From: Ehretia macrophylla
Lineage: Eukaryota > Streptophyta > Magnoliopsida > Boraginales > Ehretiaceae
Length of the DNA stretch: 64,000 bases
Direction: 5' to 3'
NCBI GenBank assembly: GCA_037974665.1
Contig: CM075783.1
Location: 43,609,818-43,673,817 of the forward strand
In this document: positions 411-59,968 of the stretch, one piece after another
Layout: each line of letters opens with the position of its first letter
How positions within the stretch are numbered: position 1 is the first letter of the stretch
Position numbers and translations under genes: made by a program
The notes under the pieces: generated by a model
The model's input: the letters and a program-made list of their open reading frames with translations, nothing else
Databases searched by the model: none
What the model was told of the DNA's origin: nothing

Positions 411-1053
411 GTTGGGTGGCCTACTTTGTCATCTAACTTAGTTGTTTTAGTGTTTAGTTGATGTTATGTTGATTGAAATATTGTTAAATGATTGATGATT
501 GATGATGGTCTGGAGGACAAGCTACTTTGTTGTCTTTCGAGAATATAAGATGTATATTATTGTTGTCATGAGTCTTGATAGTGTGTGCCACCTCTCAGGC
601 AGTATCGGGCTGTCAGGTTGATAACGGCATGACTATCATAGACTACCCCCAGCTCGCATGGGCGGAGATGCCATTGAGGGAGGGGCTAGATAAGGTACCA
701 TGGTTATGTATTATATGAGTTATAAGAAGATGGTTGAGATCGTGATGGCGTACGGAGCTACACCAACTAGTGTATCCTTTCTCAATTGAATGGTTATTTA
801 TGTGGCTTGAAATGTTAAGTTGATGTTAATGATGTTTAATGTGTGTTATTGCTCATAGGATGATTTCCCAAGTGGTAAAGTAAAGGTTTTCAAAACATCT
901 TTTGAATCCTCATTGAACTTTGCTATATATAAGCTCACCCTTGTTCGTTTATTGTCATCAGGTGTAACTGAGCCAGATTTTGGGTACGTCCCTCAGGAAG
1001 CTGAGTATGTGCCTTATGTGGAAGAGTCTTATGTGCCGGAGTCTTATCCATGA
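411..1053 (+). other. LTR structured module and 30-codon acidic frame (F 5' LTR)
   Basis: Modules in order: CTACTTT-loop hairpins at 411-437 and 512-538; a long stem, AGTCTTGATAGT (571-582) pairing with 632-644; a small hairpin with loop GGAGAT (658-674); the nonamer GTATCCTTT (772-780); a hairpin with arms 915-920 and 931-936 that includes TATATAAG (926-933); an AG ending at 961; and a reading frame at 961-1053. That frame reads GVTEPDFGYVPQ, then an acidic Y/P/E-rich part ending YVPESYP and a stop. There is no ATG, so translation would require splicing or fusion. Base pairing was judged by eye. Confidence 0.6.
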
Positions 1054-1152
1054 GTTATGTTGAAGTGCTCCGTGTTTTTGTCATAGCTTTTGTAGTATGT
1101 TGTTTTGTGTAACTTTCTCAAAAATAATGGATTATATAATACTAGTTTAGTA

Positions 1153-1157
1153 GTCTT
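1153..1157. repeat. Target-site duplication of element A (left copy)
   Basis: GTCTT directly precedes the TG of the A 5' LTR and recurs at 11176-11180 after the terminal CA of the A 3' LTR. The uninterrupted site survives in F's other LTR at 59663-59667, which confirms the insertion point. Confidence 0.97.
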
Positions 1158-3643
1158 TGTGACGCCCGAGAATTGCCATGCATTTAATTACTGTTGCATC
1201 CCTTGTTTGTGCATTTACTTCTATGCCTTATTAATTGACTTTGTGACTACTATTCACTCCGTTTTTTAAATGCTTTCTATTAGTTAATTAGCATTTTTAT
1301 TAAATCATATTAATTGTAAAAGTAGTGGGAAAAATGTGCTTTTGAGCTTAAGACGTTAGGAAGGCTCGTTTAGAAAATAATTTTAGAAGTCAAGTGAATA
1401 GTGTTACGTAACTAACTTAAGTAATTAATTAGCTAGCATATATTTTTACATCTAAGCTCGTTTTGGAGCTAGCAACGCGCATTTTATTAGACCACTTAAG
1501 CACCCTAAGGACCCCACCTCAACTCAAACCCTTATTATATCACACTTTAGCTCATTTATCACAACAAAAAAAAAAATAAAAGCTGAAACAGAACAGGGAA
1601 ACCCGACAGTAGCTAGGGAGAAAAGGAAGAGAATTTTGCTCACCAAGCCTCCAATCCAAGCCTCTCCAAGCCTTGAGCAACTAGTGTAGGGTGTTTGCAA
1701 GGTCCCTAGGTGCTTCTACGCGTAGTGGTGAGGGATTTCATGGCTTAATTTCGCATTTTAAAATAATTGCTATTTTCTTGATTTGTTGAAAATGTGATCA
1801 AATGCTATTGTAATTGTTATCTATGCTAATATACCATCTATATGAATGCTAGAGAACACATTTGAGCCGTTGTTTCGCTTTTTAAACGGTTAGAAACGTT
1901 AGTTTGATTTTTAGGGTGAATAGTGACGTTTTTTCTAGGGTTTTGCGTAATTGCTCGAATTGGATTGAATTAATGCTTCTAAATGATGCCTTAGGTACTA
2001 GTGAAGATAATTAAATAACCCCGTGCACTTGCATTGCCCTTAAATCGCCTAAAAATGGAAAATACCCGACTTTAAGTTGGGGCTTTCGGGGTTAATGCGA
2101 TTCCGGGTGGATTTGGGCTTCAATTCTAGTTTCCTTAAGCTACCTAGGTGCTATAGATGCCTTGATATCCCTTAGTTGAAGCCCGGACAATGTAGTAGTA
2201 GTTTAAAGCCAAAAGAGGGGAAATTGGGGCTTTCGGGGTAAACACGAGTATTTGACTGAGTTCGAGGGTTGAAAGGGTACCTTGGGGGTTAGTTAGAAGG
2301 TAGGGAGAGTTTCTTTTGAAAATGACATCATTAACTTGGGTTTGGAAGAGAAATAGTATGTAAAATAAAGGGGTTTAAGTACAATTTCGTTTGTCTCACA
2401 TTTCTAAACCCACGGCATGACTTCATGAGTGTTTATATATGATTTTTAATTGATTTGGAGCTTTTGAAATGATTCTATGCTTATATGGTATAAGTTCATT
2501 TGTAAACTGCTTATTAACTTCTATATTTGCTTCTATCCTAATTGCAACGAGGTCAACCTACTTTGTTGATCCTCATATGTGTTAATGCTTATATTATTGC
2601 TATTAACTTGCCATCGTTAAGTGCATTGCATAGTGGTTGCGCAACCATAGTGTCGGGGCGGATGTGTTGAATATCGGCTGGGCGGCAGAGGGCTTGCCGG
2701 TGGATATTCAAACTCCGTACCCTATTCCCTCATTCGCCTGGTCCGGAGATTGCCAGGGGATGTTGGGTCGTAGGATTCGGGGTACATCCGGAGTACACCC
2801 ATTGGAGTGATTGGGGTTATGCCGGCTTATCGTGATCGTGCTCGTGGTTCGTGGATCGTGATTGAAGACCAGTGAAGATTGGTGTATAGGGGATTGTTGA
2901 AATGTATCCTTTTAATTGTGTGGTTATTTAAGTTTTCATTGATTCTTAAATTGTTAAAGTGTTATTGTTGTGTAATTGTGTTATCTGTTGCATTGCACGC
3001 CCCGGGACTATATCCCTCACTGGGCAACAGTGGTTGCTCATACCTCGATATCTGTTTCAGGAGACGCTGAGGGTGATCCCCAGCTTGTTGATTTAGTTGA
3101 GGAAGAAGAAGTTCAGATCGAGCCTGTACCTTAGTTGCTGTGTCTGATAACTTGAGGTGGCTAATGATTTTGTTGCTATGTGGAAGACTCCTCTGATTAC
3201 TTTATGTACTATTTTGTAGCCCAAGGGCTTTGTATATGTTTGTTGTATAAGTCGAAGATTAGATGGTTGGGCTGTAGCTTTGAAAGTCTATGAACTGTAA
3301 TAACTTTTATTCTTGCCTTATTTCCTTGCATGCTTGTGAGTGGATGGTTAATGTAGAATGCTTTACTCTTTAAGTTGTTATATTGATTTCCTAGAATGTA
3401 ATGATTATAAGTCTATGCTGACAACCAGTTCTTGCATGCTTGTGTGTTTTGGTGATATTGTGTACTATAAGGCTCGGATGGCCTTATAGCTTTATTGTTT
3501 AATTAAATTAAGCTTGTATGTGTTGTAGAGACCTTGTTTAAGTGTTTACAGGTTTTTAGAATGTCCACGGTACAGAGGAGACTCTGTCCGTGTGTCGGGT
3601 CCGGACTTAACCTTTAGCTTGGGGGTTGGGTCGGGGCGTGACA
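1158..3643 (+). repeat. Element A 5' LTR (2,486 bp)
   Basis: It begins TGTGACGCCCGAG and ends GGGGCGTGACA, giving TG...CA termini. It matches 8689-11175 and the B LTRs. Poly(A)-rich stretches occur near 1564-1580, and a GC-rich island lies at about 2635-2850. I see no convincing TATA box apart from the weak TATATCC near 3010. Confidence 0.96.
2549..3134 (+). other. LTR structured module and 24-codon acidic frame (A 5' LTR)
   Basis: Hairpin with arms GAGGTCAAC (2549-2557) and GTTGATCCTC (2565-2574) around loop CTACTTT; palindrome GGTTGCGCAACC (2635-2646); GTATCCTTT (2904-2912); hairpin GGGCAAC / GTTGCTC with loop AGTG (3022-3039) preceded by CCTCACT; then CTGTTTCAG ending at 3060. From that G a 24-codon frame (3060-3134) encodes GDAEGDPQLVDLVEEEE and ends EPVP. 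It has the same phase relative to the AG as the 30-codon frame of the F/G/C/D LTRs. Confidence 0.6.
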
Positions 3644-6900: not shown

Positions 6901-8766
6901 AAATGGCGTCATTATCTTTGGGGCAACAAATTTGAAATCTTTACAGACCATAAGAGCTTGAAATATCTGTTTTCCCAGAAAGAGTTGAACATGAGGCAGA
7001 GGCGATGGCTGGAATTACTTGAGGACTATAATTGCACTATTAATTATCTTCCAGGCAAGGCCAATATTGTTGCTGATGCTTTGAGCCGAAAGGCTACTGT
7101 TGCCAGCTTGATTATCAAGAATTGGGAATTCATGGAAGAATTGTGCTTATGGAAGCCTAGTACTTCAAATTCTGGTATTCAATTTGCAAGTTTGCAGATT
7201 CAATCTCTGTTGTTATCCAGGATTCGAGAAGCTCAACAGGCTGATCTTCAATTGTTGAAAGTCTTAGAGAATTCTAAAGGGGGAGAGTCGGATTTCAAAC
7301 TGCACGACGATGGTATTCTCAAATTCAAAGGTAGAATCTGTATTCCGAATGAGCCAACTTTGAAGAAGGATATTCTTGCTGAGGCACACAGTTCCAGATA
7401 TACTATCCATCCAGGCAGTACGAAAATGTATAAAGATTTGAAGCAGAACTTCTGGTGGAATAATATGAAGAGAGAGATTGCTGACTATGTTGCCCGATGT
7501 CTTACTTGTCAGAAAGTTAAAGCAGAACATCAGAGACCTGCAGGGTTATTGCAGCCTTTGGCTATTCCTGTTTGGAAATGGGACCATATTACTATGGATT
7601 TCGTATCCGATTTACCGAGGTCTTCGAGGGGTAACGACTCAGTCTGGGTTATTGTGGATAGACTGACCAAGACTTCTCATTTTATTGCTAAAAAGAAGTC
7701 TGATTCTCTCGATAAACTGGTAGAGTTGTATATTGAGAATGTTGTCCGACTACATGGAATTCCAAAGAGTATTGTGTCGGATAGGGATCCCAGATTCACA
7801 TCTCAGTTCTGGCAGAAGATTCAGAAAGCTCTGGGCACGAATTTGAATTTCAGTACAGCTTATCACCCTCAGACAGATGGTCAATCCGAGAGAACTATCT
7901 TGATCCTTGAGGATATGTTGCGGGCTTGCATTCTGGACTTCGGTAAAAGTTGGGAGAAATATTTGCCACTAGCAGAGTTCGCCTACAACAATAGTTATCA
8001 AGCTACTATTGGTATGGCACCTTATGAGGCACTGTATGGGCGTAAATGTCGGTCTCCTCTCTATTGGGATGATGTGGGTGAGATGAAGACTATCGACCCT
8101 ACTCTTTTACCTGAAATGAACAAGATGATTGATCAGGTGCAGCTTATCAGAAAAAGAATGCTTACAGCACAGAGCCGGCAAAAGAGTTATGCAGATAGAC
8201 GCCGTCGTGATCTGAAATTTACTGTAGGGGATCGAGTATTTCTGAAAATTTCTCCTCGCAAGGGTTTGATTCGGCATGGTAAAGGAGGTAAACTCAGTCC
8301 TCGATATGTGGGACCATTTGAGATAACTGAAACTGTTGGTGATTTGGCCTACCGTCTAGCTTTACCTCCCAGTCTGGGCAGAATTCATGACGTATTCCAT
8401 GTTTCCATGCTTCGGAAGTATCAGCCAGACCCCTCTCACATACTTGAGCCGGAACCGCTAGAGATCAGTGAAACTTTGACCTACACAGAGAAACCTCTTC
8501 GAATTGTTGATCAGAAAGTTCAGGAGCTGAGGACTAAAAGCATTCCGATGGTTAAAGTTCTGTGGGATCATCATGGAGTAGAGGATGCAACATGGGAAAG
8601 AGAGGATCAGATGCGGGATCGGGATCCGGAGGTATTCGCCGAATCATGTAAGAATTGCGTGGGCGCAATTAGTTTAAGGGGGAGAGGATGTGACGCCCGA
8701 GAAATTGCCATGCATTTAATTACTGTTGCATCCCTTATTTGTGCATTTACTTCTATGCCTTATTAA
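3994..8766 (+). CDS. Element A gag-pol polyprotein (1,590 aa, intact)
   Basis: A single polyprotein of a Tekay-type chromovirus that would form particles, cleave itself, copy its RNA and integrate the DNA. The ATG at 3994 is chosen because it begins the basic MGPRRR start shared with element B; a GTG three bases earlier is less likely. Visible domains by residue: capsid-type gag at about 90-270 (WWN motif); two CX2CX4HX4C zinc knuckles near 344-382; protease DSGAS near 440; reverse transcriptase with FIDD near 774; RNase H from IYSDASKEG near 920; integrase zinc finger (about 1138-1170) and D, D, E near 1201, 1262 and 1299; GPF motif near 1439; and a chromodomain-like C-terminus (about 1500-1549). 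There is no internal stop or frameshift. The frame crosses the polypurine tract and stops 78 bases inside the 3' LTR. Confidence 0.97.
8674..8688 (+). promoter_or_regulatory. Polypurine tract of element A
   Basis: The purine run AAGGGGGAGAGGA directly precedes the 3' LTR and would prime plus-strand synthesis. It is also translated as part of the polyprotein tail (SLRGRG). Confidence 0.92.
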
Positions 8767-11175
8767 TTGACTTTGTGACTACTATTCACTCCGTTTTTTA
8801 AATGCTTTCTATTAGTTAATTAGCATTTTTATTAAATCATATTAATTGTAAAAGTAGTGGGAAAAATGTGCTTTTGAGCTTAAGACGTTAGGAAGGCTCG
8901 TTTAGAAAATAATTTTAGAAGTCAAGTGAATAGTGTTACGTAACTAACTTAAGTAATTAATTAGCTAGCATATATTTTTACATCTAAGCTCGTTTTGGAG
9001 CTAGCAACGCGCATTTTATTAGACCACTTAAGCACCCTAAGGACCCCACCTCAACTCAAACCCTTATTATATCACACTTTAGCTCATTTATCACAAAAAA
9101 AAAAAAAATAAAAGCTGAAACAGAACAGGGAAACCCGACAGCAGCTAGGGAGAAAAGGAAGAGAATTTTGCTCACCAAGCCTCCAATCCAAGCCTCTCCA
9201 AGCCTTGAGCAACTAGTGTAGGGTGTTTGCAAGGTCCCTAGGTGCTTCTACGCGTAGTGGTGAGGGATTTCATGGCTTAATTTCGCATTTTAAAATAATT
9301 GCTATTTTCTTGATTTGTTGAAAATGTGATCAAATGCTATTGTAATTGTTATCTATGCTAATATACCATCTATATGAATGCTAGAGAACACATTTGAGCC
9401 GTTGTTTCGCTTTTTAAACGGTTAGAAACGTTAGTTTGATTTTTAGGGTGAATAGTGACGTTTTTTCTAGGGTTTTGCGTAATTGCTCGAATTGGATTGA
9501 ATTAATGCTTCTAAATGATGCCTTAGGTACTAGTGAAGATAATTAAATAACCCCGTGCACTTGCATTGCCCTTAAATCGCCTAAAAATGGAAAATAGCCG
9601 ACTTTAAGTTGGGGCTTTCGGGGTTAATGCGATTCCGGGTGGATTCGGGCTTCAATTCTAGTTTCCTTAAGCTACCTAGGTGCTATAGATGCCTTGATAT
9701 CCCTTAGTTGAAGCCCGGACAATGTAGTAGTAGTTTAAAGCCAAAAGAGGGGAAATTGGGGCTTTCGGGGTAAACGCGAGTATTTGACTGAGTTCGAGGG
9801 TTGAAAGGGTACCTTGGGGGTTAGTTAGAAGGTAGGGAGAGTTTCTTTTGAAAATGAAATCATTAACTTGGGTTTGGAAGAGAAATAGTATGTAAAATAA
9901 AGGGGTTTAAGTGCAATTTCGTTTGTCTCACATTTCTAAACCCACGGCATGACTTCATGAGTGTTTATATATGATTTTTAATTGATTTGGAGCTTTTGAA
10001 ATGATTCTATGCTTATATGGTATAAGTTCATTTGTAAACTGCTTATTAACTTCTATATTTGCTTCTATCCAAATTGCAACGAGGTCAACCTACTTTGTTG
10101 ATCCTCATATGTGTTAATGCTTATATTATTGCTATTAACTTGCCATCGTTAAGTGCATTGCATAGTGGTTGCGCAACCATAGTGTCGGGGCGGATGTGTT
10201 GAATATCGGCTGGGCGGCAGAGGGCTTGCCGGTGGATATTCAAACTCCGTACCCTATTCCCTCATTCGCCTGGTCCGGAGATTGCCAGGGGATGTTGGGT
10301 CGTAGGATTCGGGGTACATCCGGAGTACACCCATTGGAGTGATTGGGGTTATGCCGGCTTATCGTGATCGTGCTCGTGGTTCGTGGATCGTGATTGAAGA
10401 CCAGTGAAGATTGGTGTATAGGGGATTGTTGAAATGTATCCTTTTAATTGTGTGGTTATTTAAGTTTTCATTGATTCTTAAATTGTTAAAGTGTTATTGT
10501 TGTGTAATTGTGTTATCTGTTGCATTGCACGCCCCGGGACTATATCCCTCACTGGGCAACAGTGGTTGCTCATACCTCGATATCTGTTTCAGGAGACGCT
10601 GAGGGTGATCCCCAGCTTGTTGATTTAGTTGAGGAAGAAGAAGTTCAGATCGAGCCTTTACCTTAGTTGCTGTGTCTGATAACTTGAGGTGGCTAATGAT
10701 TTTGTTGCTTTGTGGAAGACTCATCTGATTACTTTATGTACTATTTTGTAGCCCAAGGGCTTTGTATATGTTTGTTGTATAAGTCGAAGATTAGATGGTT
10801 GGGCTGTAGCTTTGAAAGTCTATGAACTGTAATAACTTTTATTCTTGCCTTATTTCCTTGCATGCTTGTGAGTGGATGGTTAATGTAGAATGCTTTACTC
10901 TTTAAGTTGTTATATTGATTTCCTAGAATGTAATGATTATAAGTCTATGCTGACAACCAGTTCTTGCATGCTTGTGTGTTTTGGTGATATTGTGTACTAT
11001 AAGGCTCGGATGGCCTTATAGCTTTATTGTTTAATTAAATTAAGCTTGTATGTGTTGTAGAGACCTTGTTTAAGTGTTTACAGGTTTTTAGAATGTCCAC
11101 GGTACAGAGGAGACTCTGTCCGTGTGTCGGGTCCGGACTTAACCTTTAGCTTGGGGGTTGGGTCGGGGCGTGACA
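8689..11175 (+). repeat. Element A 3' LTR (2,487 bp)
   Basis: Starts TGTGACGCCCGAG and ends GCGTGACA, followed by the GTCTT duplication. It is nearly identical to the 5' LTR; differences seen include an extra A near 8701, a G/A change near 8734 and scattered single substitutions. Confidence 0.96.
10081..10666 (+). other. LTR structured module and 24-codon acidic frame (A 3' LTR)
   Basis: CTACTTT-loop hairpin 10081-10106, palindrome 10167-10178, GTATCCTTT 10436-10444, second hairpin 10554-10571, AG ending at 10592 and the 24-codon frame 10592-10666 ending EPLP. Same order and phase as in the 5' LTR. Confidence 0.6.
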
Positions 11176-14008: not shown

Positions 14009-16466
14009 TGTCACGCCCTAACTCGACCCCACCTACAATCAGTCAGGACGCAACAGAATTTCGGCAGTATAACGACAGTAATTAAGACACCGAGGTTTTA
14101 AACCAACCTCTCAGAACATCATACATTCAACTCCTCAACCAAACAACAATCAATTCCTCAATACCATTAACAACATACAACATAACCATATTATACAATA
14201 ATCATTCTTAGTTATACGCCTCCATTCCAACATAACCATAACTTTAACATACATATCAAAATAGATTATAAACCAACTTAGCAACCTAAATCATAACAAA
14301 AGAAAGACTACTAAGTTAGCATCATTTAGTTCATTATCTTTACTACAACTTATACATCATAAACTACAAAGTAAATAAAAGACAACTAGTTTAATATACA
14401 AGATAATAGAGTATACAACATCTCAAGCATCAAGGACAAGACTCTGGCACATAGGACTCGTCCACATACGACACATTATCCCCTTCTGGAGGCACGTACC
14501 CGTAATCTTGCTCAATAACACCTGTATGCATGCAATAATAGAGAGTGAGCTTATATAAACAAGCTCAGTGAGGATCCGATAGATCTCTAACAGTATTTAC
14601 TATACTCCTTGGAAATGATCCTTTGAGCAGTAAACACGCAATAAAACATCAATAACAATATAAACACATAACTATAATGACCAATCAATAAAGGATACTC
14701 TAGTTGATGTAGCTCCAAACGCCATCACAATCTCAACCATTCTTCTTGTAACTCCCCATTACTCACGCACCCGAGGTACCTCACTAGCCCCTCCCTCCAT
14801 GACACCTCCGTCATGGGAGCTGGGGATAGTCTCTGGTAGTCATGCCATTATCAACCCGACAGCCCGATGCTGCCCGAGAGGTGGCAAACATATACCAAGA
14901 CTCAGCAAAAATAATAAACATCATTCACAGGAGGACAATCTAGCAGAATCGCCTATCTCTCGGTTCATCAATCATCAATCAATAATCATCAGTAATCATC
15001 AATTATCATCAATTATCATCAATATAACATCAAATAATAAATTAAACAACAAACAACTAAGTTAGATGACAAAGTAGGCAATCCAACTTAACATGCATTA
15101 AACACGTAATCTAACCCTAGTCTAACCATCAACAACTCACAATTCAATCACTCAAACACCACCCAATCATCTAAAGGCTCAATTCAACAATTTAAAGAAA
15201 GACAACCTAAACTTCAAATAATCATATCTTACATTCTACTAATCCAAACAACTCCAAATCAGTTTCTAACACTCACCCATTCAATCATTTATATTAGCCC
15301 TCTCGGAAACCAACCAAGACACATCAAAATCAAGCCCAACAACCCTAAAACCTCAATGCACCTAGGCTGAAAATTCTGAATTTTCACCCAAACATCGCAA
15401 TCAAAAATTCGGCATTATAACGGTGTCACCACGTAATTAACAAATTTTTAGAAATCGACGGCAATCAATTCCAACTACAACAACTCAAGATAATCATCAA
15501 ATGACCAATCTATCAACTTTTAATACCCGAAAATAAATAATTTTGCTACAATGGTTCAAATCTCGTAGTAATACACATAAACGATCCCTAGCATACACTG
15601 AGAAATAATATAACTTCAAATTAACATTCTAACGGTTCAAAATGCAATTATGAGCAAAAACATAAAAAATGACTTTTGAGATCTAGAATTTTTCTCTCAC
15701 CTTTGATGTGTTTTGAAGCGACAAAGATGATCAATGGATGCTCAAGAGGTGGAATCAAGCCTTGGTTGATGGAAATTGGCCTTGAATTGCAACTTTTAAT
15801 GAAAATTTACTTTGAAAAAATGTTGAAAATGCTCTCAAGAAAAGCTATGGAGTTTCGGCCACTTGTGTGTGCTTTGAGTGTGTTTTGTGTTGTTTTAGTA
15901 GGTGTTGATGCATAAATAAGTAATGGTCAAACTTATTAAAAATGGTCAATGTTAGTTTATTAGTCTTTTAATTCATTTCTTAGTCTTTTAAGTCATTTCT
16001 TGGCTATTTCTTGCTCAACTAAAAAATTAATACCTAAATTAATTCTAGACATTATATTTTAGGTGACAAAGAGTGTTACTTTAAAACAGTTTCACCCGAA
16101 TTGGCTTAAAACTCGTTTTCTTACAAAAGAAAGTGTAAAAATCTTTAAAATTCCAAAACCGATTCCAAATCCGTTTTCATCAAATACGGGTCTATTAATA
16201 CCCGAGGACTAGGTTTTAAAACGTTTAAAACACCCCTGTAAAAATTTTAGCGGATAGGTGTTCAAAAATGCTATTCACCAAAACCGACGATAAAATTTCT
16301 GATTCCGTTTTTTATGAAAATTTCATGAATGCACACTTAGCATGTATTAGGAATATAAATCACATATTTAGCACATTCTAACTCATATAACACATAAACA
16401 GGTCAAATTACGTAAATCGAGGCAAAGACACGCACATCGAGACAAAGCAAAATGTGGGGTCTCACA
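14009..16466 (-). repeat. Element G 3' LTR (2,458 bp)
   Basis: On the plus strand it runs from TGTCACGCCCTAACTCG to GGGGTCTCACA, which reads TGTGAGACCCC...GGGCGTGACA on the element strand. It is about 50 bp longer than the other G LTR, partly through a local duplication near 15960-16000 and an extra ATCATC unit near 15000. Confidence 0.93.
14430..15087 (-). other. LTR structured module and 30-codon acidic frame (G 3' LTR)
   Basis: On the minus strand: CTACTTT-loop hairpin 15087-15061; hairpin CATGAC / GTCATG with loop GGAGGT (14815-14798); GTATCCTTT (14698-14690); hairpin GAGCTT / AAGCTC (14566-14547) preceded by CCTCACT; AG at 14522; and the 30-codon frame 14522-14430, starting GVIEQDYGYVPPEG and ending YVPESCP. 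Confidence 0.6.
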
Positions 16467-24083: not shown

Positions 24084-24098
24084 TTTAAGGGGGGAGAA
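24084..24098 (+). promoter_or_regulatory. Polypurine tract of element F
   Basis: TTTAAGGGGGGAGAA directly precedes the 3' LTR start TGTGAAACCC. Confidence 0.9.
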
Positions 24099-24431
24099 TG
24101 TGAAACCCTAAATTTTGTCTTTTGTGAAATTGCGTGTTTTGACATGAATATGTGTTAGTTGAATTAAAATGTGCTAATTTTGTGATTTCTACTCCTATTG
24201 CATGCTATGTGAGCAAACATGAAATTTTCATAAAAAATGGGCATTGAAAATTTTATCGTTGAGTTTCGTGAATAGTATTTTTGAAACATGTCCGCTAAAA
24301 TTTTAAAACTGGTCTTTTAAGCATTTGAAAACCTAGTCCTCAGATATTAATAGACTCGTGTCTGATTAAAACTGATTCTGAAATGAATTAAGAATTTAAA
24401 AGGATTTTTCACTATCTTTCGCAAAAATAAG

Positions 24432-24493: not shown

Positions 24494-25478
24494 GCTGTCA
24501 ATTAGAATATAGTTCTAAAAAAATAGAACTAATTATATAGTATTATAATTACTATTTTTGGCAAACTAACTAAAATAACAAAAGTTTGACAACTTTGACT
24601 AAGTTTATTTTGTTGACTATGTATATAAATATATCATACACATATTATACATACACAATACAATTAGACAAAGGTCAAATCACCAAAAATACACACACAC
24701 ATGGCCGAAACTCCATAGAGAAAAAAAGGAGATTTTTCACTTGGTTTTCAAAGCAATTTTTCATTAGAAAACTTAATTTTTGTCCAAAGCTTTTAATTCT
24801 GGGTTTGATTCCGCTTGTTGGGCATCCATTGCACGCATTCCTAGCTTTACTTCGGATCAAAGGTAAGAGAAAAATTCTAGATCTTGAAATGCTATTTCTT
24901 GTCAAATTATTATAGTTACATTTTTATCCGATGCTTTGTCAAATTGTCTTTAGATTATTGCTCAGTAGTTGCCAATGAGCATTTATATGTATTTATAGCT
25001 GTTTTGAATGGTAGTAGCATATATTTCTGATTTTCGGGCATTAAAATTGATTTATTGGCTTATAGTTGAATAATTGTTGTTGTAGTGGTTGGAATTGAAT
25101 GGTTGTTGCTTCTATGAGTTTTTTAATTATTGTGTAGTAATGTTGTAATGCCGAATTTTCAATTTGGATGTCGTAGCAAAAGTCAAAAAATTCAGCTTAG
25201 GTGGATTGCCAAAAATAGGGTTGTTGGACTTGCTTTGGATGGGTTTTGATTGGTTTTCGGTGGGGTTAATGTAATTGCATGTGTGGTGGAGTGATAGAAA
25301 GTGGTTTGGGGGTTACTGGATTTCTAGATTGTAAGTTATGAATGTTGGAAGATTGTGTAATCTTTCTTTGAATTAAAAAAAAAATGTTTTCTTTAATTGG
25401 TTGGTGGTTTTGAGTAGTTGTTTAATGGATTATTATTGAGTGGATTTGGGTTTGGGAGTATGTTTAAATGTATGCTAA

Positions 25479-36520: not shown

Positions 36521-36525
36521 CAGTC

Positions 36526-36606
36526 CTCGCATATCTAGGGCAATCCTTCGCCCTATGCTCGATGCTACCACAACCCAAACATGTCCCTGCCTTTACCCTG
36601 CAGTCG
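36526..36606 (-). pseudogene. Element C gag fragment: end of first and whole second zinc knuckle
   Basis: An 81 bp island between E and B. The minus strand encodes the last Cys of knuckle 1 and a complete second knuckle, CLGCGSIEHRAKDC. It is in frame with the gag on the far side of B once B is removed. Confidence 0.93.
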
Positions 36607-36611
36607 GACTC
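36607..36611. repeat. Target-site duplication of element B
   Basis: GACTC here and at 46633-46637. Confidence 0.95.
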
Positions 36612-44221: not shown

Positions 44222-46632
44222 CTGACTTTTGTGACTACTATTCACTCCGTTTTTAAACTGCCTTCTATTAGTTAATTAACATTTTTATTAAATCATATTA
44301 ATTGTAAAAGTAGTGTGAAAAATGTGCATTTGAGCTAATGGCGTTAGGAGAGCTCGTTTAGAAAATAATTTTTGTAGTTGAATGAATAGTGTTACGTAAT
44401 AACTTTATAGATTTAATTAGCTAGCCTAAGTTTTATACATTAGCCTCGTTTTGGAGCTAGCAACGCGCATTTTATTAGATCACTTAAGCACCCAAATGAC
44501 CCCACCTCAACTTAACCCCTTTATTATATCACTTAAGCTCATAAAATGCAAAAGAAAAAAAAAATAAAAAGCTGAAAACATGAGCCAAACCCGACAGCCC
44601 CTCTTTGCACTTGGGAGGAATTTTTCATCTTCAACTCTTCAATTCAAGCCAAGCCAAGCCTTGAGCAACTAGTGTAGGCTGTTTGCAAGGGTCCTAGGTG
44701 CTCTTACGCGTATTGGTAAGGGATTTCACGACTTGTTTTTGCATTTTTAAATAGTTACTCATTTCTTGATTTGTTGAAAATATGATTATATGCCATTGTA
44801 ATTGTTATCTATGCTAATATACCATCTATATGAATGCTAGAGAACACATTTGAGCCGTTGTTTCACTTTTTAAACGGTTAGAATCGTTAGTTTGATTTTT
44901 AGGGTGAATAGTGACATTTTTTCTAGGGTTTTGTGTAATTGCTCGAATTAGCTTGATTTAATGCTTCTAATAGATGCCTTAGGTGTTAGTGAAGATAGCC
45001 TAATAGCCCCGTGCACTTGCATTGCCCTTAAATTGCCTAAAAATGGAAAATAGCCGACTTTAATTTGGGGCTTTCGGGGTTAATGCGAATCCGGGTGGAT
45101 TCGGGCTTCAATTCTAGTATCCTTAGGCTATCTAGGTGCTATAGATGCCTTGATATCCCTTGTTTGAAGCCCGGACAATGTAGGTGTAGTTTAAAGCCAA
45201 AAGAGGGAAATTGGGGCTTTCGGGGTAAACGCGGGCATTTGAATGAGTTAGAGGGTTGAGAGGGTACCTTGGGGGTTAGTTAGAAGGTTGGGAGAGTTTC
45301 CTTTGAAAATGAAATCATTAACTTTGGTTTGGAAGAGAAATAGTTCGAAAAACAAAGGGGTTTAGGTGCAATTTAAGTTGTCTCACACTTCTAAACCCAT
45401 GTCAGGACTTCTTGAGTGTTTATATATGATTTTAAATTGATTTGGAGCTTTTGGTATGATTCTATGCTTATTTGGTATATGTTCATTTGTAAACTGCTTA
45501 TTAGCTTCTATATTTGCTTCTATCCTAATTGCAACGAGGTCAACCTACTTTGTTGATCCTCATATGTGTTAATGCTTATATTATTGCTATTAACTTGCCA
45601 TCGTTAAGTGCATTGCATAGTGGTTGCGCAACCATAGTGTCAGGGGCGGATGTGTTGAATATCGGCTGGGCGGCAGAGGGCTTGCCGGTGGATATTCAAA
45701 CTCCGTGCCCTATTCCCTCATTCGCCTGGTCCGGAGATTGCCAGGGGATGTTGGGTCGTAGGATTCGGGGTACATCCGGAGTACACCCACTGGAGTGTTT
45801 GGGGATTATGCCGGCTTATCGTGATCGTGCTCGTGGTTCGTGGATCGTGATTGAAGACCAGTGAAGATTGGTGTATAGGGGATTGTTGAAATGTATCCTT
45901 TTAATTGTGTGGTTATTTAAGTTATCATTGTTTCTTTAATTGTTTAAGTGTTATTGTTGTGTAATTGTATTATCTGTTGCATTGCACGCCCCGGGACTAT
46001 ATCCCTCACTGGGCAACAGTGGTTGCTCATACCTCGATATCTGTTTCAGGAGACGCTGAGGGTGATCCCCAGCTTGTTGATTTAGTTGAGGAAGAAGAAG
46101 TTCAGATCGAGCCTTTACGTTAGTTGCTGTGTCTGATAGCTTGAGGTGGTTAATGAATTTGCTGCTATGTGGAAAGTTCAATTAATTGTTTTATGTTCTA
46201 TTTTGTGGCCTAAGGGCTATGTATATGTTTGTTGCGCAAGTCGAAGGATAGTAGATTGTGGTGTAGAATTGGAAGCCATGTCTTGTAATAACTTTTATTC
46301 TTGCCTTATTTCCTTGCATGCTTGGGAGTGGATGGTTAATGTAGAATGCTTTATCCTTTAAGTTGTTTTATTGATTTCCTAGAATGTCATGATTATAAAA
46401 CTATGCTGACAACAAGTTCTCGCATGCTTGTGTGTTTTGGAGCTATTGTGTACCATAAGGCTCGGATGGCCTTATAGCTTTGTTGTTTAATTAAGAAAAG
46501 CTTGTATTGTATTGTTGGGACTTTGTTTAAGTGTTTACAGGTTTTTAGAATGTCCACGGTACAGGGGAGACTCTGTCCGTGTGTCGGGTCCGGACTTAAC
46601 CTTTAGCTTGGGGGTTGGGTCGGGGCGTGATA
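44144..46632 (+). repeat. Element B 3' LTR (2,489 bp)
   Basis: TGTGACGCCTGGG start; ends GCGTGATA instead of GCGTGACA, followed by GACTC. Same family as the A LTRs. Confidence 0.95.
45536..46123 (+). other. LTR structured module and 24-codon acidic frame (B 3' LTR)
   Basis: CTACTTT-loop hairpin 45536-45561, palindrome 45622-45633, GTATCCTTT 45893-45901, hairpin 46011-46028, AG at 46049 and frame 46049-46123 ending EPLR (final Pro changed to Arg). Confidence 0.58.
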
Positions 46633-48337: not shown

Positions 48338-50705
48338 TGTCACGCCCCAACTCGACCCCTCTTACAATCAGTCAGGACGCAACGGAATTTCGGCAGCATA
48401 ACGACAGTAACATGAACATCAGGGCTCTAAACCAACCCTTAATGACAACATACATCAAACTCCACAAATCACCAACCAACTCCACAATCAAATTAACAAC
48501 ATACAACGCAACCATTTCATACATTAAACATTCTTTCATCAACTCATTCATAGTTATGCACCTCCGTTCCAACTTAATACATAAGCTATACATACATTTC
48601 AAAATAGATTATACAAAACATTATTTTACAACAACTAAGATAATCTCATGGCAATGACTCCTGCACTTAAGACTCATCCACATACGGCACATTTCCCTCT
48701 TCCGGAGGCACATACCCGTAGACAAAATCAGTAACACCTGCATGCATGCAATAATAGAGAGTGAGCTTATATAAATAAGCCCAGTGAGGATCCGATAGAT
48801 CTCGACAGTATTCACTACGCTCCTTGGATTTAGTCCTTTGAGCAAGTAAACACACAACAACAATAATAACATAAATAAAGCTATCATCACATAACTATAT
48901 AACCAATCAATAAGGATACTCTATTTGGTGTAGCTCCAAACGCCATCACGATCTCAACCGTTCTTCTTATAACTCCCCATTACTCACGCACCCGAGGTAC
49001 CTCACTAGCCCCTTCTCTCCATGACATCTCCGTCATGCGAGCTGGGGGTAGCCTATGGCAGTCATGCCGTTATCAACCCGACAGCCCGACGCTGCCCGAG
49101 AGGTGGCACACACATACCAAGACTCCATATTCATCAATCATCATGCAAGCATAAATCAATCAATCAATTGGGAGATCAGCAACAAGAGTGCCCGATTCCC
49201 GCATTCAATAATAATCAATCAATATCATTTTATCATCATCAATAATCATATCATCATCATCAATAACATCAATAATCAATTAAACAACAAATAACTAAGT
49301 TAGATGACAAAGTAGGCCATCCAACCGAACATGCATTAAACACACAATCAAACCTTAGTTTACCCATCAACAACTCACAATTCAATCACTCAAACCACAC
49401 CCGATCAACTAAGGCTCAATTCAATAATTTAAAGAAAGATAACCTAAACTTCAAATAATCATATCTTACATTCTACTAATCCAAACAACTCCAAATCAAT
49501 TTCAAACACTCACCCATTCGATCATCTACATTAACCTTATCGGAAACCAACCAAGACACCTCAAAATCAAGCCCAACAACCCTAAAACCTCAAGGCACCT
49601 AGGCTGAAATTTTTGAATTTTAGCACGGACATCACAATCGAAAATTCGGCATTACAACAGCGCTAACACGTAATTATCAAGTATTTAGAAATCGACGGCA
49701 ATCGATTTCGATCATCACAACTCAATTAATTCAACTTTGAACATTTTAATCAAAATTAAATACCCGGAAAATAAAAATTATGCTACATCCGACAGAAATT
49801 CGTAGTATTGGTATATAACGATCCCTAGCATGCATGGAGCAATAATCTAACATCAGTTTTCAATTCTAACGGTTAAATTTTCATTTATGAGCAAAAACAT
49901 AAAAATGACATTTTGAGATCTAGAATTTTTCTCTCACCTTTGATCCGAAGTAAAGCTAGGAATGCGTGCAACAGGTGCCCAACAAGCGGAATCTAGCTCG
50001 GTTTGAAAAGATTCGGACTTTAAATGAGTTTTCTAAGGCAAAATTACTTTGAAAATAAGTTGAATAAAATCCCTTTTTTTTCCTAAGCTTTCACGGCTGC
50101 AAGGTGTGTGAAAATGTGGTGTTTTGCTTTGTTTCATTGTGTGTTGGTGATATATGCATGAAAGTCAACAAGTCAAATGAAAGTCAAAGTTGAAACTTTA
50201 GTATTTTTAGTGTTTTCTTGACTTTAAATGCATTTTATTGATCACCAAAGTTCAAAACAATTATTCAACACACAAGCTAGCTCAAGTAAATTATTTTTAG
50301 GTGACAAGAAGTTTTACAATCAAACAATTTCACCCGAGTCGGCTTAAAACTCGATTTTCGCAAAAGTCGGTGTAAAATCCCTAATAAATTCTTAAGCCGA
50401 TTTTAAAACCATTTTAATCAAACACAGGTCTATTAAAGTCCGTAGTCTAGGTCTAGAAGGGTTAAAAAGACCAGTTTCAAAATTTTAGCGGACGTGTTTC
50501 GAAAATACTATTCACTAAAAATCGACGATAAAATTTCTGACTCTGTTTTTTATGAAAATTTCATGAATGCACATTTAGCATGTATTAGGAGTATTGACAT
50601 CAAAATTATAACATTCTAGGTCATATAGCACATAAACAGGTCAAATGCACGTAAAACGAGATAAAACACGTAAATCGAGTTAAAGCAGAAAAGGGGGGGT
50701 TCACA
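48338..50705 (-). mobile_element. Element D: solo LTR of the F/G/C family inside the C LTR
   Basis: A 2,368 bp single LTR (plus-strand ends TGTCACGCCCCAACTCG and GGGGGGTTCACA), flanked by GTTAA at 48333-48337 and 50706-50710. The uninterrupted site is visible in C's other LTR at 28769-28773. No interior remains, consistent with LTR-LTR recombination. Confidence 0.95.
48646..49325 (-). other. LTR structured module (solo LTR D), 30-codon frame broken
   Basis: CTACTTT-loop hairpin 49325-49299 (arms GTTGGATGGC and GTCATCTAAC), hairpin CATGAC / GTCATG 49037-49020, GTATCCTTA (48919-48911, one base changed or lost), hairpin GGGCTTAT / ATAAGCTC 48782-48763, AG at 48738. The 30-codon frame 48738-48646 has a TAA at 48667-48669. 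Confidence 0.58.
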
Positions 50706-52837
50706 GTTAACATCATTTGGATCATTATCTTTCAACATCTATTACAATAAGAACCATAAAGCATATAAAAGTCTATTAAGCTAATATACATGACATTAAA
50801 CAACATAGAATCATGGATAAGACTCAGGAACATATGACTCGTCCACGTAAGGCATATTTTCCTCCTCAGGAGGCACGTACCCGTAATCCGGCTCTACAAC
50901 ACCTGTAAGCATGCTATAATAGAGAGTGAGCTTATATACATAAGCCCAGTGAGGATCCGATAGATCTCGACAGTATTCACTATGCTCCTTGGATTTAGTC
51001 CTTTGAGCAAGTAAACACACAACAACAATAATAACATTATCATCACATAACTATATAACCAATCAATAAAGGATACTCTATTTGGTGTAGCTCCAAACGC
51101 CATCACGATCTCAACCGTTCTTCTTATAACTCCCAATTACTCACGCACCCGAGGTACCTCACTAGCCCCTCCCTCCATGACACCTCCGTCATGCGAGCTG
51201 GGGGTAGCCTATGGCAGTCATGCCGTTATCAACCCGACAGCCCAACGCTGCCCGAGAGGTGGCACACACATACCAAGACTCCATAATCATCATCAATCAT
51301 CAATCAATCATCAATCAATCAATTGGGAGATCAGCAACGAAAGTGCCCGATTCCCGAACTCAATAATAATCAATCAATAACATCAATATAACATCAATAT
51401 TTAATTAAACAACAAACAACGAAGTTAGATGACAAAGTAGGCCATCTAACTGAACATGCATTATATACACAATTAAACCCTAAATTACTCATCAACAACT
51501 CACCATTCAACACTCAAACACAACCCAACCATCTAAAGTTATCGTTCAAGAAATTAAAGAATGACAACCTAAATTTCTAAAATTCATAACTTACAATCTA
51601 CTAATCCAAACATTGCCAAATCAGTTTCTATCACTCACCCATTCAACCTACTACATTAGCCCTCTAGGAAATCCACCATAACACCTCCAAATCATGCCCG
51701 ATAACCCTAAAACCCTAGGATGTCTTGGCTGAATTTTTCGGATTTTCACACGAACCATGTAATCAAAAATTCGGCATTACAACAGCGCTAACACGTAATT
51801 ATCAAGTATTTAGAAATCGACGGCAATCGATTTCGATCAACACAACTCATTTAATTCAACTTTGAACATTTTAATCAAAATTAAATACCCGGAAAATAAA
51901 AATTATGCTACATCCGACAGAAATTCGTAGTATTGCATCAAAATGATCCCTAGCATGCAAGGAGCAATAATCTATCATCAGATTTCAATTCTAACGGTTA
52001 AATTTTCATTTATGAGCAAAAGTATAAAAATGACATTTTGAGATCCAGAATTTTTCTCTCACCTTTGATGCGATATAAGCCTAGGAATACGTGCTATGCG
52101 TGCCCAACAAGCAGAATCCAAGTCAGTGCGAAGTTCTATAGACAAAAACTATGTTTTTCTTTGAAAATTTGATTGAAAAGCTTGAGTTTTTCTCTTTCTT
52201 TTTCTCCCTCAACCTCTCGGCCCTTTGTGTGTGTGTGGAGTGTGTTTTGTGCTTTGCCTAGTGTGTGTTGATGACTCATTTTATTGCTCACCAAGCTCAA
52301 AATAAAAAAAATGCAAAGTCAAAGTAGTTTAAGTTAGTATTTTTGTGTTTTCTTGACTTTAAACTCATTTTATTGCTCACCAAGCTCAAAATAATTATGC
52401 AACCCCCAAGATATCTCAAGTGGATTATTTTTAGGTGACAAGAAGTTTTACAATCCAACAATTTCACCCGAGTCGGCTTAAAACTCGATTTTCGTAAAAG
52501 TCGGTGTAAAAACCCTAATAAATTCTTAAGCCGATTTTAAAACCGTTTTCATCAAACACAGGTCTATTAAAGTCCGTTGACTAGGTCTAGAAGGGTTAAA
52601 AAGACCAGTTTCAAAATTTTAGCGGACGTGTTTCGAAAATACTATTCACTAAAAATCGACGATAAAATTTATGACTCCGTTTTTGATGAAAATTTCATGA
52701 ATGCACATTTAGCACGTATTAGGAGTATTGACATCAAAATTATAACTTTCTTGGTCCTATAGCACATAAACAGATCATATGCATGCAAATCGAGGTATAG
52801 CACGTAAAACAGATAAGTAGGAAAGTGGGGTTTCACA
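50706..52837 (-). repeat. Element C 5' LTR, second part on plus strand
   Basis: Resumes after D and ends GGGGTTTCACA at 52837, followed by the CACTT duplication. Bases 52274-52304 are a 31 bp copy of 52363-52393 that replaces unrelated sequence found in the other C LTR near 30334. Confidence 0.93.
50811..51450 (-). other. LTR structured module and 30-codon acidic frame (C 5' LTR)
   Basis: CTACTTT-loop hairpin 51450-51424, hairpin with loop GGAGGT 51193-51176, GTATCCTTT 51076-51068, hairpin GGGCTTAT / ATAAGCTC 50947-50928, AG at 50903, frame 50903-50811 of 30 codons starting GVVEPDYGYVPPEEE. Confidence 0.6.
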
Positions 52838-55557: not shown

Positions 55558-57186
55558 GTAGTAGACATTATCTATCCATGATTTGGTTGTTTTGGATCGG
55601 CTTGGTGTGCGATCCCAATTTTGAAAAAATGTTTATAAATGTTCGAATAGTTTGACTATTTATTTAAATAGTAGTGACTATTTTCAATCGTTTCTAGAGG
55701 ATGTTTTGGAAATGATCGTTTGTAAGAAATGAATGACATTTTGTATATCTTTCATTAATAGTAATGAAATGATCGGAATGCATTTCGGAAGGAAGAATGT
55801 TTTCAAACTCAAAACATTTATATTTCATTGTTTTGCATTTATAGAAATGGCTAAATACCAAATCATACATATAATGTCTTGAACTTTGAAATGGTCAAGA
55901 GTTAAAGACTGGAATTCCTGTATTAATCTATTTAAACGAGTTTGATAGATTAATTATTCTTTTTGACAAAAGAGTTAGTTCAAAATAAATAATTGAATGA
56001 AATGGAGCTTATGAGACTTGTCCAGAATATGTTGGGTTATAAAAGAAGATTAGAGAATGCGTCTTTTATCACTATAATCTTTCAAATTAATTTTAAACTT
56101 ATACCATGTTTTAATTCTATAGCTGTATAGAATATAAACTCCTTCATGCATAGTTTCTTTAGAGAAAGATAACTACGATGAAATGGTTGAAATGAAAAGA
56201 TAGAGATCGTTTTCATTTATAAATAAAGGTAATATCTAAATTTATAAGAAAGGTTAGTGGGAGTTCACGCCCTTAACAAATCTTGTGAATTTATGATACC
56301 TTCGTTCGCCAAGGTCCAATTAAATTTAATATCATGTTGTTTTTCCTTGGGTAAATCAATCATGTCTTGTAAGTATCGTGTCTATGAAGTACAGTGATAT
56401 GATTGTTTGTTTTCTCATTGCCTGTACACCAAGTCACGATCTTAAAGTTCTCTTTAAGATGGAGGAATCTAAGAAATTTTGGTCTCTAGTCTTAATGACA
56501 GGGTATCCGTCTTTTCTTGTAGATTTCTTTCTGACTAATAAGGAAACGTTGCGAATGGTTTTTGCACATAATCCTTTCGCTGTTTGCATTCTCTTTTAAA
56601 TGCAATAGCAAGTACATGGCATGATATGATGTAATGAGTTACATGATAGGTATCGAAGAGAAAACATATGGGTTCCAGTGATGTTATTGTTATAATGATC
56701 TCTATATGAACTTTAATCCAAAATTTTAAGGTTTACGGTTATAGTAAAGTTCTTAGTGAAGAATTCACTTAAAAGGATAAAAGTGTATTTAATGGATTTG
56801 TGAATTATTGGAAAGAGTTCCGAATAATGATAAATAATAGTTATGTTGTTATTTGAGCCTAGATGCTACTTGACTTTTATGATGTTTGGATAATATATGG
56901 TTCTGTCTATTGATAGTAGCCGATGCAATATGGTGGCTATCATAGAGGCTTTCTGTACAAGCTCAAAAGAACCTGATCTCATCAAGAGTCCAAACCTGTA
57001 AAGAGTCAATTCAAGAGTTTCTTTCTTGATAAGAAAATGAATTAACAGATAAAGATCCTATAGTTGTTTCTATATATGACCCACTGATCCTGTAAAGACC
57101 ATTACAGTTGATCACCATCTTCAGGAAGATGAGTATAGAGATACGAATGTTAAATGCACTAGATCCTATGGTTGATAGCATTAGTG
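55558..57186 (+). other. Element H 3' interior without recognisable pol
   Basis: About 1.6 kb. I found no integrase, reverse transcriptase or RNase H motif. A 73-codon frame at 56378-56599 has no recognisable relative. Confidence 0.7.
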
Positions 57187-57198
57187 CAAGTGGGAGAT
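57187..57198 (+). promoter_or_regulatory. Polypurine tract of element H
   Basis: CAAGTGGGAGAT directly before the right LTR, typical of plant copia elements. Confidence 0.85.
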
Positions 57199-58460
57199 TG
57201 TTGGGGATATGCCTTAATGCTAAAGTTTGAGATGACCTTATTAGGGTTTAATGAGAATATATTTATGTGCTTTTTTACACTATATGATTTGTAGGATATT
57301 TATATTTTCTGCTTCGATATGAATATGTCCCTAGTGTTTATTTGAGAAGGAAAATGTTCTAAAAGGGTTAAGGATATTTCGCACTTTTTCTTCGATGTGA
57401 TAAACATTATGAAACAATTCATAGCCCTTCATATTATTCAACCGGGACTAGAATAATTGAGTACGGGTTATCATATATTATTACCTTTGATTAACATAGT
57501 GATATTAATGATAAAGGATGGCGTGCAAAATGCCAGAACAACATGGTGATGTGGACTAATAAACATATGAGTGATCGTCTATGCATGGATCATTGAATGT
57601 GACAATAAATAGTGAACTGCATGATTTCAGGTTAATAGTTTACTATTTAGTTGAGAATTGTGCAAATTAATCCTTAGACTTGAGAAATTTCGGCTACCGG
57701 TTATATCAGGAGCTAAATACTGCGTCTGGACAATGCCTATGTTCTATAAGGTGGGTTACAGCCTTTCACATTTTAGTCTTGTGGTATGAACCGACAGGTA
57801 ATTGTCAAGATAAGATCTGTTAACCTCCGGCGTGAGGCAATGTCCTATGATATTTAAGATCAGTTGGAAAACGAGGAAGTCCTTGGCCAAGGAGAGTATG
57901 AAGTGATGAAAATGAGTTTTTCCATGGTAGTCATCTTTCATTTCACCGATTCAGATTTATACATAGTATCGGATGTGGGCTTAACTATTTAATGGCCCTT
58001 TCCCAATCGGGGCACTTATAATAGAAGGATCGGACTGCACGCTAATTTTTGACGGTTAAAAGGATTCATAAAAGACATCGTCTTCATTATCGTATACATT
58101 TTCATGGTACGTTTGTTGCTAGTGTGTCACTCATGAGCATGAGGGTATTTCGGTAAATGACAGAGACATTTTCGAAATAGATAAGGAGGTTTATCAGTCC
58201 CTCATCGGTACGCGATAATGAATCTAGAAGGTCACACACTAATAAGTATTATGAATAAGTTCTCTGGGAGCTTGTATTATGTGGTTGATGGCTTTAAAGT
58301 GGTAAGAGGCATCTTTGTTGGTATTTGTGCCAAAAGTGTGATTTTGAAAAGTTTTGGGATTAAATTGTAATTACCAAAACTTTTGGAGCCAAACTGTAAT
58401 TATTGAAAAGGTTGTTTATATATATTTATTCTAATGGAGATTAGAATTCGCAAGAAAATA

Positions 58461-58502
<42 letters not shown>

Positions 58503-59384
58503 GTGTTTATATATGTATATGTGTAATGATGATGTAATTTGTGAAATGCCATGTCATCATCTTAGTTGTCAAAAGGTAAATTGCAAATTAATGACTAGAT
58601 TGATGACATGGCATGTGATGCAGAGATTGATGACTAGGATTGTCCATGTCATCAATCCTAGTGATTTGAATTTGAAATGAATGAATATGACTCATTTTTT
58701 AATAAAGACAAAAGAATCTTGATCATTGCTTTTGTTGATAAAGCCTTTTTGACAAGTATCAAGAGAGAGAATGAAGTTATCTTTAGATTGTAATGATTAC
58801 AATCCTAGGGCTTGCATGATTTTTACTTTAAAAGGAAGCAATTTTGATTGGCCACCTATTAAAGTAATATTATATATATGTTTGTATGAGCACATAATAT
58901 ATATTTAATAAAAGATGACAAGCATTCTCTCTCCATCCACTTGCATTTTCGGCCAAGGGAGGGAGGAGAGAGAAACTTGTCATCTTGCCATCCAAGGCTA
59001 ATCATTAAGATCAAAAGGCTTGCATGGCTTTTGATTAAAAGGTGATAATATGATTGGTCACCTATTTTGATAGATTATTATAATAAAAGATGATAGCTTT
59101 TTTTTATCTCACACACAAGGCCTCTCACCACTCGATGCACACACCAACTAAGAAGACAAGAACTTCATCTTTTTCTTTGTGTGTTTCGACCATAGCTAGA
59201 ACAACAAGAATGAAGTTTTGTTTTGCTTGGTAACATACTTACATAGTCTCAAAACTTGAAGCTACTACTAGCACATTCCTTCTTCAAGTATTGGTTGATC
59301 TTTGGATACTTGGTGGACCAACTAGTGCCTTCAAGTTAGAAGGATTCAAAAGCTTGTCTACCATTTTTCATCGTCTCCAAAGTG
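57199..59384 (+). repeat. Element H right LTR, 3'-truncated
   Basis: Starts TGTTGGGGATATGCC and follows the left LTR to AAAGTG (59379-59384), where it joins F LTR sequence. The last 311 bp of the LTR are missing. An (AT)n run lies at 58461-58500, and the hairpin ATTATTC / GAATAAT at 57433-57457. Confidence 0.87.
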
Positions 59385-59968
59385 GTAAAGTAAAGGTTTT
59401 GAAAACATCTTTCGAATCCTCACTAAGCTTTGTTATATATAAGCTCACCCTCATTCGTTTATTGTAATCAGGTTTAATTGAGCCAGATTTTGGGTACGTC
59501 CCTCAGGAAGTTGAGTATGTGCCTTATGTGGAGGAGTCTTATGTGCCGGAGCCTTATCCATGAGTTATGTTGAAGTGCTATGTGTTTTTGTCTTAGCTTT
59601 TGTAATATATTGTATTGTATAACTTACTCAAAAATAATGGTTTATATAATACTAGTTTAGTAGTCTTCCTTTTGAATATGATTAGGTTGCTAGACTAGTT
59701 TATAATCTATTTTGCAAATGTATAGTATAGTTTGTGGTATGTTGTTGAAACGGAGGCTTATGACTTATGTTGAAATGTCGTATGGATGTTAAATGAATGG
59801 CTATGTATTTGTTAAATGGATGTTGGAGTTGTTGCTGAACTTGGAGTTGGTTGTGTTACGTTTTTTGAGGATTGGATAGAGTTCTGATGTTCATGTTACA
59901 GACGTTATATAGCTGAAATTCCGTTGCGTCCTGACTGATCGTAAGTGGGGTCGAGTTGAGGCGTGACA
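59385..59968 (+). repeat. Element F 3' LTR, right part
   Basis: Aligns with 875-1157 and then 11181-11481, ending GGCGTGACA. It keeps the empty site of element A (GTCTT 59663-59667). Confidence 0.93.
59426..59563 (+). other. Second hairpin and 30-codon acidic frame (F 3' LTR)
   Basis: Hairpin arms 59426-59430 and 59441-59445 (weakened, AGCTT / AAGCT); AG at 59471; 30-codon frame 59471-59563 starting GLIEPDFGYVPQEVE and ending YVPEPYP. The GTATCCTTT nonamer was lost with the 178 bp missing at the H junction. Confidence 0.58.

Follow-up and report, generated by a model that had tools for sequence, protein, structure and literature searches.

Evidence for an Intron and a Short Coding Exon in the Long Terminal Repeats of Ty3/gypsy Elements of Ehretia macrophylla

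Introduction

Long terminal repeats (LTRs) are usually regarded as non-coding. A stretch of 64,000 nucleotides from Ehretia macrophylla (GenBank assembly GCA_037974665.1, contig CM075783.1, positions 43,609,818–43,673,817 of the forward strand; termed the window) contains nested plant Ty3/gypsy elements, and it raises the question of whether their LTRs can encode a peptide, and to which upstream sequence such a coding exon would be joined. An earlier note on this DNA had drawn attention to an acidic reading frame that follows a conserved AG in several of the LTRs, and had proposed protein-level selection on it and a role as a terminal exon or fusion tail. The analysis gives good support to the selection and to the AG as a splice acceptor. 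The reading put forward for the function of the frame, tentatively, is that it encodes a C-terminal tail of Pol.

Acidic frames in the LTRs

By their LTRs, elements F, G and C and the solo LTR D form one group, and A and B form another. Pieces of A and C match PF24626, the Tf2-1-like integrase C-terminal SH3-like domain (E-value = 5.2e-26 and 1.7e-25, respectively). The chromodomain PF00385 is unreported for both pieces at E 0.001, and the precomputed annotation of some homologues has it.

The seven 30-codon frames described for the F/G/C/D LTRs, one of them with an internal stop, are present as the earlier note had it. They follow a conserved CAG and all end in TGA. The 24-codon acidic frame described for A and B is also found, in four LTRs. 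The frames are:

961–1053, forward strand: 30-codon acidic frame and TGA, F 5′ LTR (the G of the acceptor AG is at 961)
59471–59563, forward strand: 30-codon acidic frame, F 3′ LTR
28874–28966, reverse strand: 30-codon acidic frame, C 3′ LTR
50811–50903, reverse strand: 30-codon acidic frame, C 5′ LTR
14430–14522, reverse strand: 30-codon acidic frame, G 3′ LTR (G is without a pol open reading frame)
19693–19785, reverse strand: 30-codon acidic frame, G 5′ LTR
48646–48738, reverse strand: 30-codon frame with one internal stop, D solo LTR
3060–3134, forward strand: A-family 24-codon acidic frame (GDAEGDPQLVDL...) and stop, A 5′ LTR
10592–10666, forward strand: 24-codon acidic frame and stop, A 3′ LTR
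38512–38586, forward strand: 24-codon acidic frame and stop, B 5′ LTR
46049–46123, forward strand: 24-codon acidic frame and stop, B 3′ LTR

The F/G/C/D peptide is acidic, rich in tyrosine and proline, and 30 or 33 codons long. The frame does lie at the AG, but the base from which it had been counted still belongs to the AG, being its G, and the exon proper therefore begins one base later, with GT in F/G/C/D and GA in A/B. Codon 1 is split (phase 1) and the exon needs one base from an upstream exon. The absence of an ATG, also noted earlier, holds for the exon but not for the sequence upstream: an in-phase ATG stands three codons before the frame in C, G and D, within the intron described below. 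F and A/B do not have it.

Selection on the frame

A recount of the base differences gave the figures of the earlier note: 19 between F and C (2, 3 and 14 at codon positions 1, 2 and 3) and 18 between G and C (2, 4 and 12). When F 5′, C 3′, G 3′ and D are taken together, 35 columns are variable, 4/9/22 by codon position (hypergeometric p = 2.9e-6). In six of six comparisons the frame is the most third-position-biased gapless 90-nt window of the LTR alignment (167 to 676 windows per comparison), its top rank being tied with windows offset by one or two codons. Shuffles of alignment columns matched the observed protein similarity 0, 0 and 1 times per 2000 trials.

The frame is abundant in the host genome (1.58 Gb). 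A degenerate pattern of the frame start has 4391 exact matches, the reversed control has none, and the 30-nt stretch that leads up to the AG is matched 6390 times. A broader sample was assembled from 70 copies with an exact match to this upstream stretch (the frame being excluded from the match) and six window copies, 76 in all. As all 70 were chosen by exact match and lie within the first 24 Mb of contig 1, they are young and not a random sample. The frame is intact in 55 of them, interrupted by a stop in 14 and frameshifted in one; it is 30 codons long in 36, 33 codons long in 33 and short in one. The two common lengths differ by a single 9-nt block. Only this 9-nt indel and one 1-nt indel occur in the frame, and in 206 downstream columns 26 of 29 distinct gap runs are non-multiples of three.

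On a tree of the 76 copies built from flanking sequence only, internal branches carry 21/33/76 changes by codon position (67 synonymous, 63 nonsynonymous) and terminal branches 64/49/78 (62 synonymous, 129 nonsynonymous; internal versus terminal, Fisher p = 7.6e-4). With all columns included in the tree, the counts are 17/27/73 and 63/45/68, respectively. Internal per-site rates at codon positions 1, 2 and 3 are 0.64, 1.0 and 2.3, and that of the downstream flank is 2.23. Residue 2, encoded by the first whole codon beyond the AG, is V or I in all but one of the 76 copies.

LTR pairs record post-insertion change only. Differences within the F, G and C pairs amount to 5/3/2 by codon position, as expected after insertion. 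Eleven pairs together show 13/4/7 (6 synonymous, 18 nonsynonymous), a ratio close to neutral given 20.7 synonymous and 69.3 nonsynonymous sites (internal branches versus pairs, p = 0.025); in the row for the C 5′ LTR the downstream flank count (41 of 187) is wrong because that LTR is interrupted. The ratio of nonsynonymous to synonymous rates (omega) is about 0.28 on internal branches, 0.62 on terminal branches and 0.90 in LTR pairs. Constraint on internal branches, together with near-neutral LTR pairs, indicates that the frame is protein-constrained in active lineages and released after insertion. The selection proposed in the earlier note is thus borne out in a broader sample, and it is well supported that the F/G/C/D frame was protein-coding, with selection acting on the protein in those lineages that spread. 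The A/B copies are too similar for a selection measurement.

The third-position excess could have arisen by chance or mutation bias in a frame that is untranslated, as the frame is short and the window offers four lineages only. However, the pattern recurs in the 76 copies, with neutral behaviour after insertion, and this is the least probable of the explanations weighed here.

A splice acceptor and an intron inside the LTR

The AG at the frame ranks 1–3 among the 87–144 AGs per LTR in all 11 window LTRs (by weight-matrix score). A donor of the form CAAAG/GTRAGAG (the slash marks the splice site) lies about 1.2 kb upstream in the same LTR in both G LTRs, both C LTRs, the F 3′ LTR and D. Representative leader donors are:

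24863–24868, forward strand: leader donor CAAAG/GTAAGA, F 3′ LTR
30120–30125, reverse strand: leader donor CAAAG/GTGAGA, C 3′ LTR (use of the pair shown by related copy L141)
1728–1733, forward strand: leader donor GTAGTG/GTGAGG, A 5′ LTR (use shown by copies L142–L144)

Splicing of such an intron, followed by reverse transcription of the RNA, should leave intron-less LTRs, and the genome was searched for the junction. In the F/G/C/D group one copy was found, L141, which is precisely without the LTR intron and has an intact frame. Its junction is at position 608; the blocks aligned to its closest relatives end at 611 on the leader side and start at 607 on the exon side, an overlap accounted for by bases common to both splice sites. 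The A family has three intron-less copies. L142 and L143 are both LTRs of one element (sites G000:C5:35988048 and 35994259; 1073 of 1090 positions identical), and L144 is the third. All three are without 1333 nt, from GTGAGG to TTTCAG.

It is well supported by these copies, which are indirect evidence of splicing, that the AG is a real 3′ splice site, paired with a donor in the same LTR. The proven intron, of about 1.2–1.3 kb, is wholly inside the LTR, and not between or within gag and pol. Two intron-less LTRs in one new element would be expected if the intron sits in the transcribed leader. Judged from the L142/L143 element, leader-spliced RNA was apparently reverse-transcribed and integrated.

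A different account of the AG is that it is a transcription start, with the TATATAAG box about 35 bp upstream, and that the frame is merely conserved R sequence. A TATA-like sequence is indeed present in F, G, C and D. It looks so because it is the 3′ arm of a hairpin that precedes the acceptor, for example:

28990–29011, reverse strand: hairpin immediately before the acceptor in the C 3′ LTR; 3′ arm ATAAGCTC resembles a TATA box
3021–3040, forward strand: hairpin upstream of the acceptor, A 5′ LTR, arms GGGCAAC and GTTGCTC

The arms covary between families. They are GGGCAAC and GTTGCTC in A/B, GGGCTTAT and ATAAGCTC in C and D, GAGCTTGT and ATAAGCTC in G, GGGTATAC and GTATACTC in the LTRs H and I, and TGAGT and ACTCA in L003, a probable contaminant described below; the pairing in F is imperfect. 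The stretch is not TATA-like in A/B, H/I or L003, and a TATA box or start at the AG was rejected on this ground. Moreover, the intron-less LTRs prove the acceptor, and codon-phase selection and the 9-nt indel would be left unexplained. A transcription start is therefore highly improbable.

Is the leader exon the coding partner?

The junction of LTR exon 1 and exon 2 is the sole proven one, and the frame could be a micropeptide of the 5′ leader, translated from leader-spliced RNA in autonomous and non-autonomous elements from a non-AUG start near the junction. The junction codon would be Gly in both F/G/C/D and A, so that A would be accounted for as well, and branches labelled non-autonomous still look constrained (10/16/30 by codon position). 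Exon 1 itself does not behave as coding sequence. In 19 of the 30 loci its last 54 nt show internal changes of 13/13/18, and the frame, on the same tree, 7/14/35 (these 19 were found by a motif that presupposes the leader donor, and conservation of the donor among them is partly by construction). Seventeen of 20 loci have an in-phase stop no more than about 28 codons from the junction, and 18 of 19 have either no ATG or one that is out of phase in the last 90 nt of exon 1. A leader peptide is accordingly considered unlikely. Exon 1 as a partner that starts at an ordinary ATG was rejected, as it has no coding pattern and no conserved in-phase ATG.

The proposal of a terminal exon thus stands as far as the acceptor is concerned, but the leader exon of the known junction shows no coding signal. 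Because the leader exon is non-coding and has no conserved in-phase ATG, another junction at the same AG is likely.

A candidate donor at the end of pol

The gag-pol frames of A (8640–8766), C (30802–30945) and F (24059–24120) run through the polypurine tract into the LTR with no earlier stop. The last conserved Pol block is upstream of the tract; the CRM-type arrangement, with a chromodomain or CR motif downstream of it, was not found. Sites of interest at the pol end are:

24059–24064, forward strand: candidate donor CAA/GTAAGA, F
30936–30941, reverse strand: candidate donor CAA/GTAAGA, C (same site in other copies)
8648–8653, forward strand: GTAAGA of A; splice to its own LTR exon would give TGA
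44103–44108, forward strand: GTAAGA of B; splice to its own LTR exon would give a stop

In its 3′ part, pol has 50 GTs common to A, B, C and F; by weight matrix, this GTAAGA has the best minimum donor score of them. Twenty F/G/C/D loci were fetched for their pol ends, from matches to the frame-start pattern and many of them picked for LTR spacing; in the 12 readable copies the GT is always in phase 1, within GTAAG in 10, GTGAG in one and GTAAT in one. Unspliced, the C-termini at the pol end are 19–48 residues long. Of the predicted spliced tails, 11 of 12 reach the usual end and one stops early.

In the model preferred here, the LTR consists of a leader exon, an intron of about 1.2–1.3 kb and a second exon that encodes the acidic peptide. 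In the 3′ LTR the AG would accept the pol-end donor CAA/GTAAGA in phase 1. The spliced mRNA would encode a Pol that ends in ...LFRTS-S-VAEPDYGYVPPEEENVPYVDESYVPESYP, with an acidic tail of 30–33 residues, and unspliced RNA would read into the LTR. Splicing would in this way swap a variable read-through of 19–48 residues for a conserved acidic tail. The spliced RNA would be without the polypurine tract and most of U3, and may serve as an mRNA but not as a replication template.

The fit of donor, phase and frame suggests that the peptide is a C-terminal tail of Pol made by pol-end splicing. This is claimed for F/G/C/D only, with a probability of about one half (0.48). A wider version is doubtful: that the LTR is a split gene used twice, the acceptor of the 5′ LTR removing the leader intron and that of the 3′ LTR giving tailed Pol while the polypurine tract and most of U3 are deleted, so that splicing would set mRNA apart from genome.

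A small hairpin directly follows the pol-end GTAAGA (24065–24080, 30920–30935, 8654–8669 and 44109–44124), and its arms covary: ATTTCG and CGAAAT in C, ATTGCG and CGCAAT in A/B, ATTTGG and CCAAAT in L001. L001–L004 are loci of plant-type retroelement sequence, probably contamination, in assemblies that bear the names Streptomyces and Mycobacterium and in two bacterial metagenome-assembled genomes. At the same place in pol, L001 has GAG/GTAAGT in phase 0 and L002 has TTAG/GTAAAT in phase 1; L003 and L004 have no donor-like site. In Cucumis melo, gene models P0067, P0076, P0080, P0086, P0087 and P0091 exit the chromodomain into other sequence, as the predicted splice would; this may be an artefact or real splicing. 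Models P0101, P0107, P0108, P0114 and P0120 show the same exit.

Evidence against a Pol tail

Several observations weigh against pol-end splicing. Genome searches for a trace of the pol–exon junction gave no match, either for F/G/C/D with up to two mismatches or for the A family with up to one; such RNA could hardly replicate, and the missing trace is for that reason weak evidence. Protein searches gave no tailed protein (120 listed of 399 matches, nine further matches in another search, and no candidate in a third).

The fusion-tail idea meets a pol-end donor that fits F/G/C/D but no other family. In A and B the splice would give the stop T/GA, with the same T in eight of eight further A copies. 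In family K, found through the pattern CAG/GTAAG (45 genome matches; L145, L146 and L148–L154 are among its loci), the donor is perfect but in phase 0, and the splice would give Q-E-stop. The family carries a phase-1 acidic frame, GVVEAAPIEVLEEEEEQVEVFP, preceded by the hairpin and by the acceptor, which is mutated in one of the three copies read; three of the four fetched loci are readable at both ends, one of them with a shifted pol frame, and L147 missed the exon. A and K nevertheless keep acidic phase-1 frames, and a single mechanism for all three families is missing.

Constraint is also seen where Pol is not expected from the labels. Branches with only non-autonomous descendants show 10/16/30 changes by codon position and those with an autonomous descendant 8/10/33, the labels being coarse. 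The interior of G has no stop-to-stop open reading frame above 87 residues.

A third possible partner is gag. A spliced subgenomic RNA could join an N-terminal part of gag (about 70–80 residues) to the exon and so encode a small accessory protein, a layout like that of CERV of the Cer1 element. There is a phase-1 G/GT in the gag QGG region of C and at similar places in A, and also in nine of ten fetched autonomous copies. It would retain Gly as the junction codon; the A site at 4193, GCAG/GTAATC, is the best-scoring donor of the internal region by weight matrix. The donor position, however, shifts by one codon between families, its quality varies, and the F site is weak. A gag junction is quite improbable, more so than a leader peptide.

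Other LTRs of the window

The tail of A as a homolog of the C-type tails was rejected, since 3770, 2180 and 1753 of 5000 shuffles reached the alignment score. LTR family E/J is found at 25757–27884, 57127–59289 and 34461–36609, inserted in the F 3′ LTR and in C pol. It was rejected as a further case of a coding LTR, being a different LTR family. The hairpin-bearing LTRs H and I were also considered and have no acidic frame.

Relation to known systems

A 2025 review, in the parts available, describes plant LTR elements as generally intron-free, with Ogre and EVADE as notable exceptions and a mention of BARE1 (PMC12786077). In Ogre (Ty3/gypsy) and in EVADE/BARE1 (Ty1/copia), the available text places the intron internally, between or within gag-pol regions (PMC6317226, PMC12786077). 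The elements described here resemble these in having functional introns and RNAs with different coding ends, but their intron is confined to the LTR, where a coding exon begins at its acceptor.

In CRM-clade chromoviruses and beet Bingo the gag-pol open reading frame extends into the 3′ LTR, according to the portion seen of PMC3605345. Pol coding sequence within the LTR would be a shared feature. Their frame runs across the LTR start, whereas the piece described here is about 1.9 kb into the LTR and, in the Pol-tail model, could be reached by no route but splicing. CERV of Cer1 in C. elegans has 517 residues and five exons, with the last exon in the polyprotein frame, and the excerpt consulted describes no LTR exon (PMC10309623). 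Like the frame described here, it is a spliced extra product of a Ty3/gypsy element with its own terminal exon; the tail differs in having 30–33 residues and in lying in the LTR. The sunflower Tekay 5′aORF is situated at the element's 5′ end and encodes an extra protein of some 400 residues (PMC11728184). It is likewise an extra protein, and Tekay is the clade label given in the earlier note; it differs from the LTR frame in place and size.

In the literature searched, no title or abstract opening reported that the LTR of such an element contains an intron or a spliced coding exon; absence from print is unproven. Scans of viral contigs and tblastn searches of plasmids and phages gave nothing useful on the frame.

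Significance

The intron-less copies indicate that leader-spliced RNA can apparently be reverse-transcribed and integrated. If true, Pol-tail splicing would be a simple division of RNA between translation and replication. A conserved coding exon and an intron in the LTR, with thousands of matches in one genome, would alter the annotation of these plant elements.

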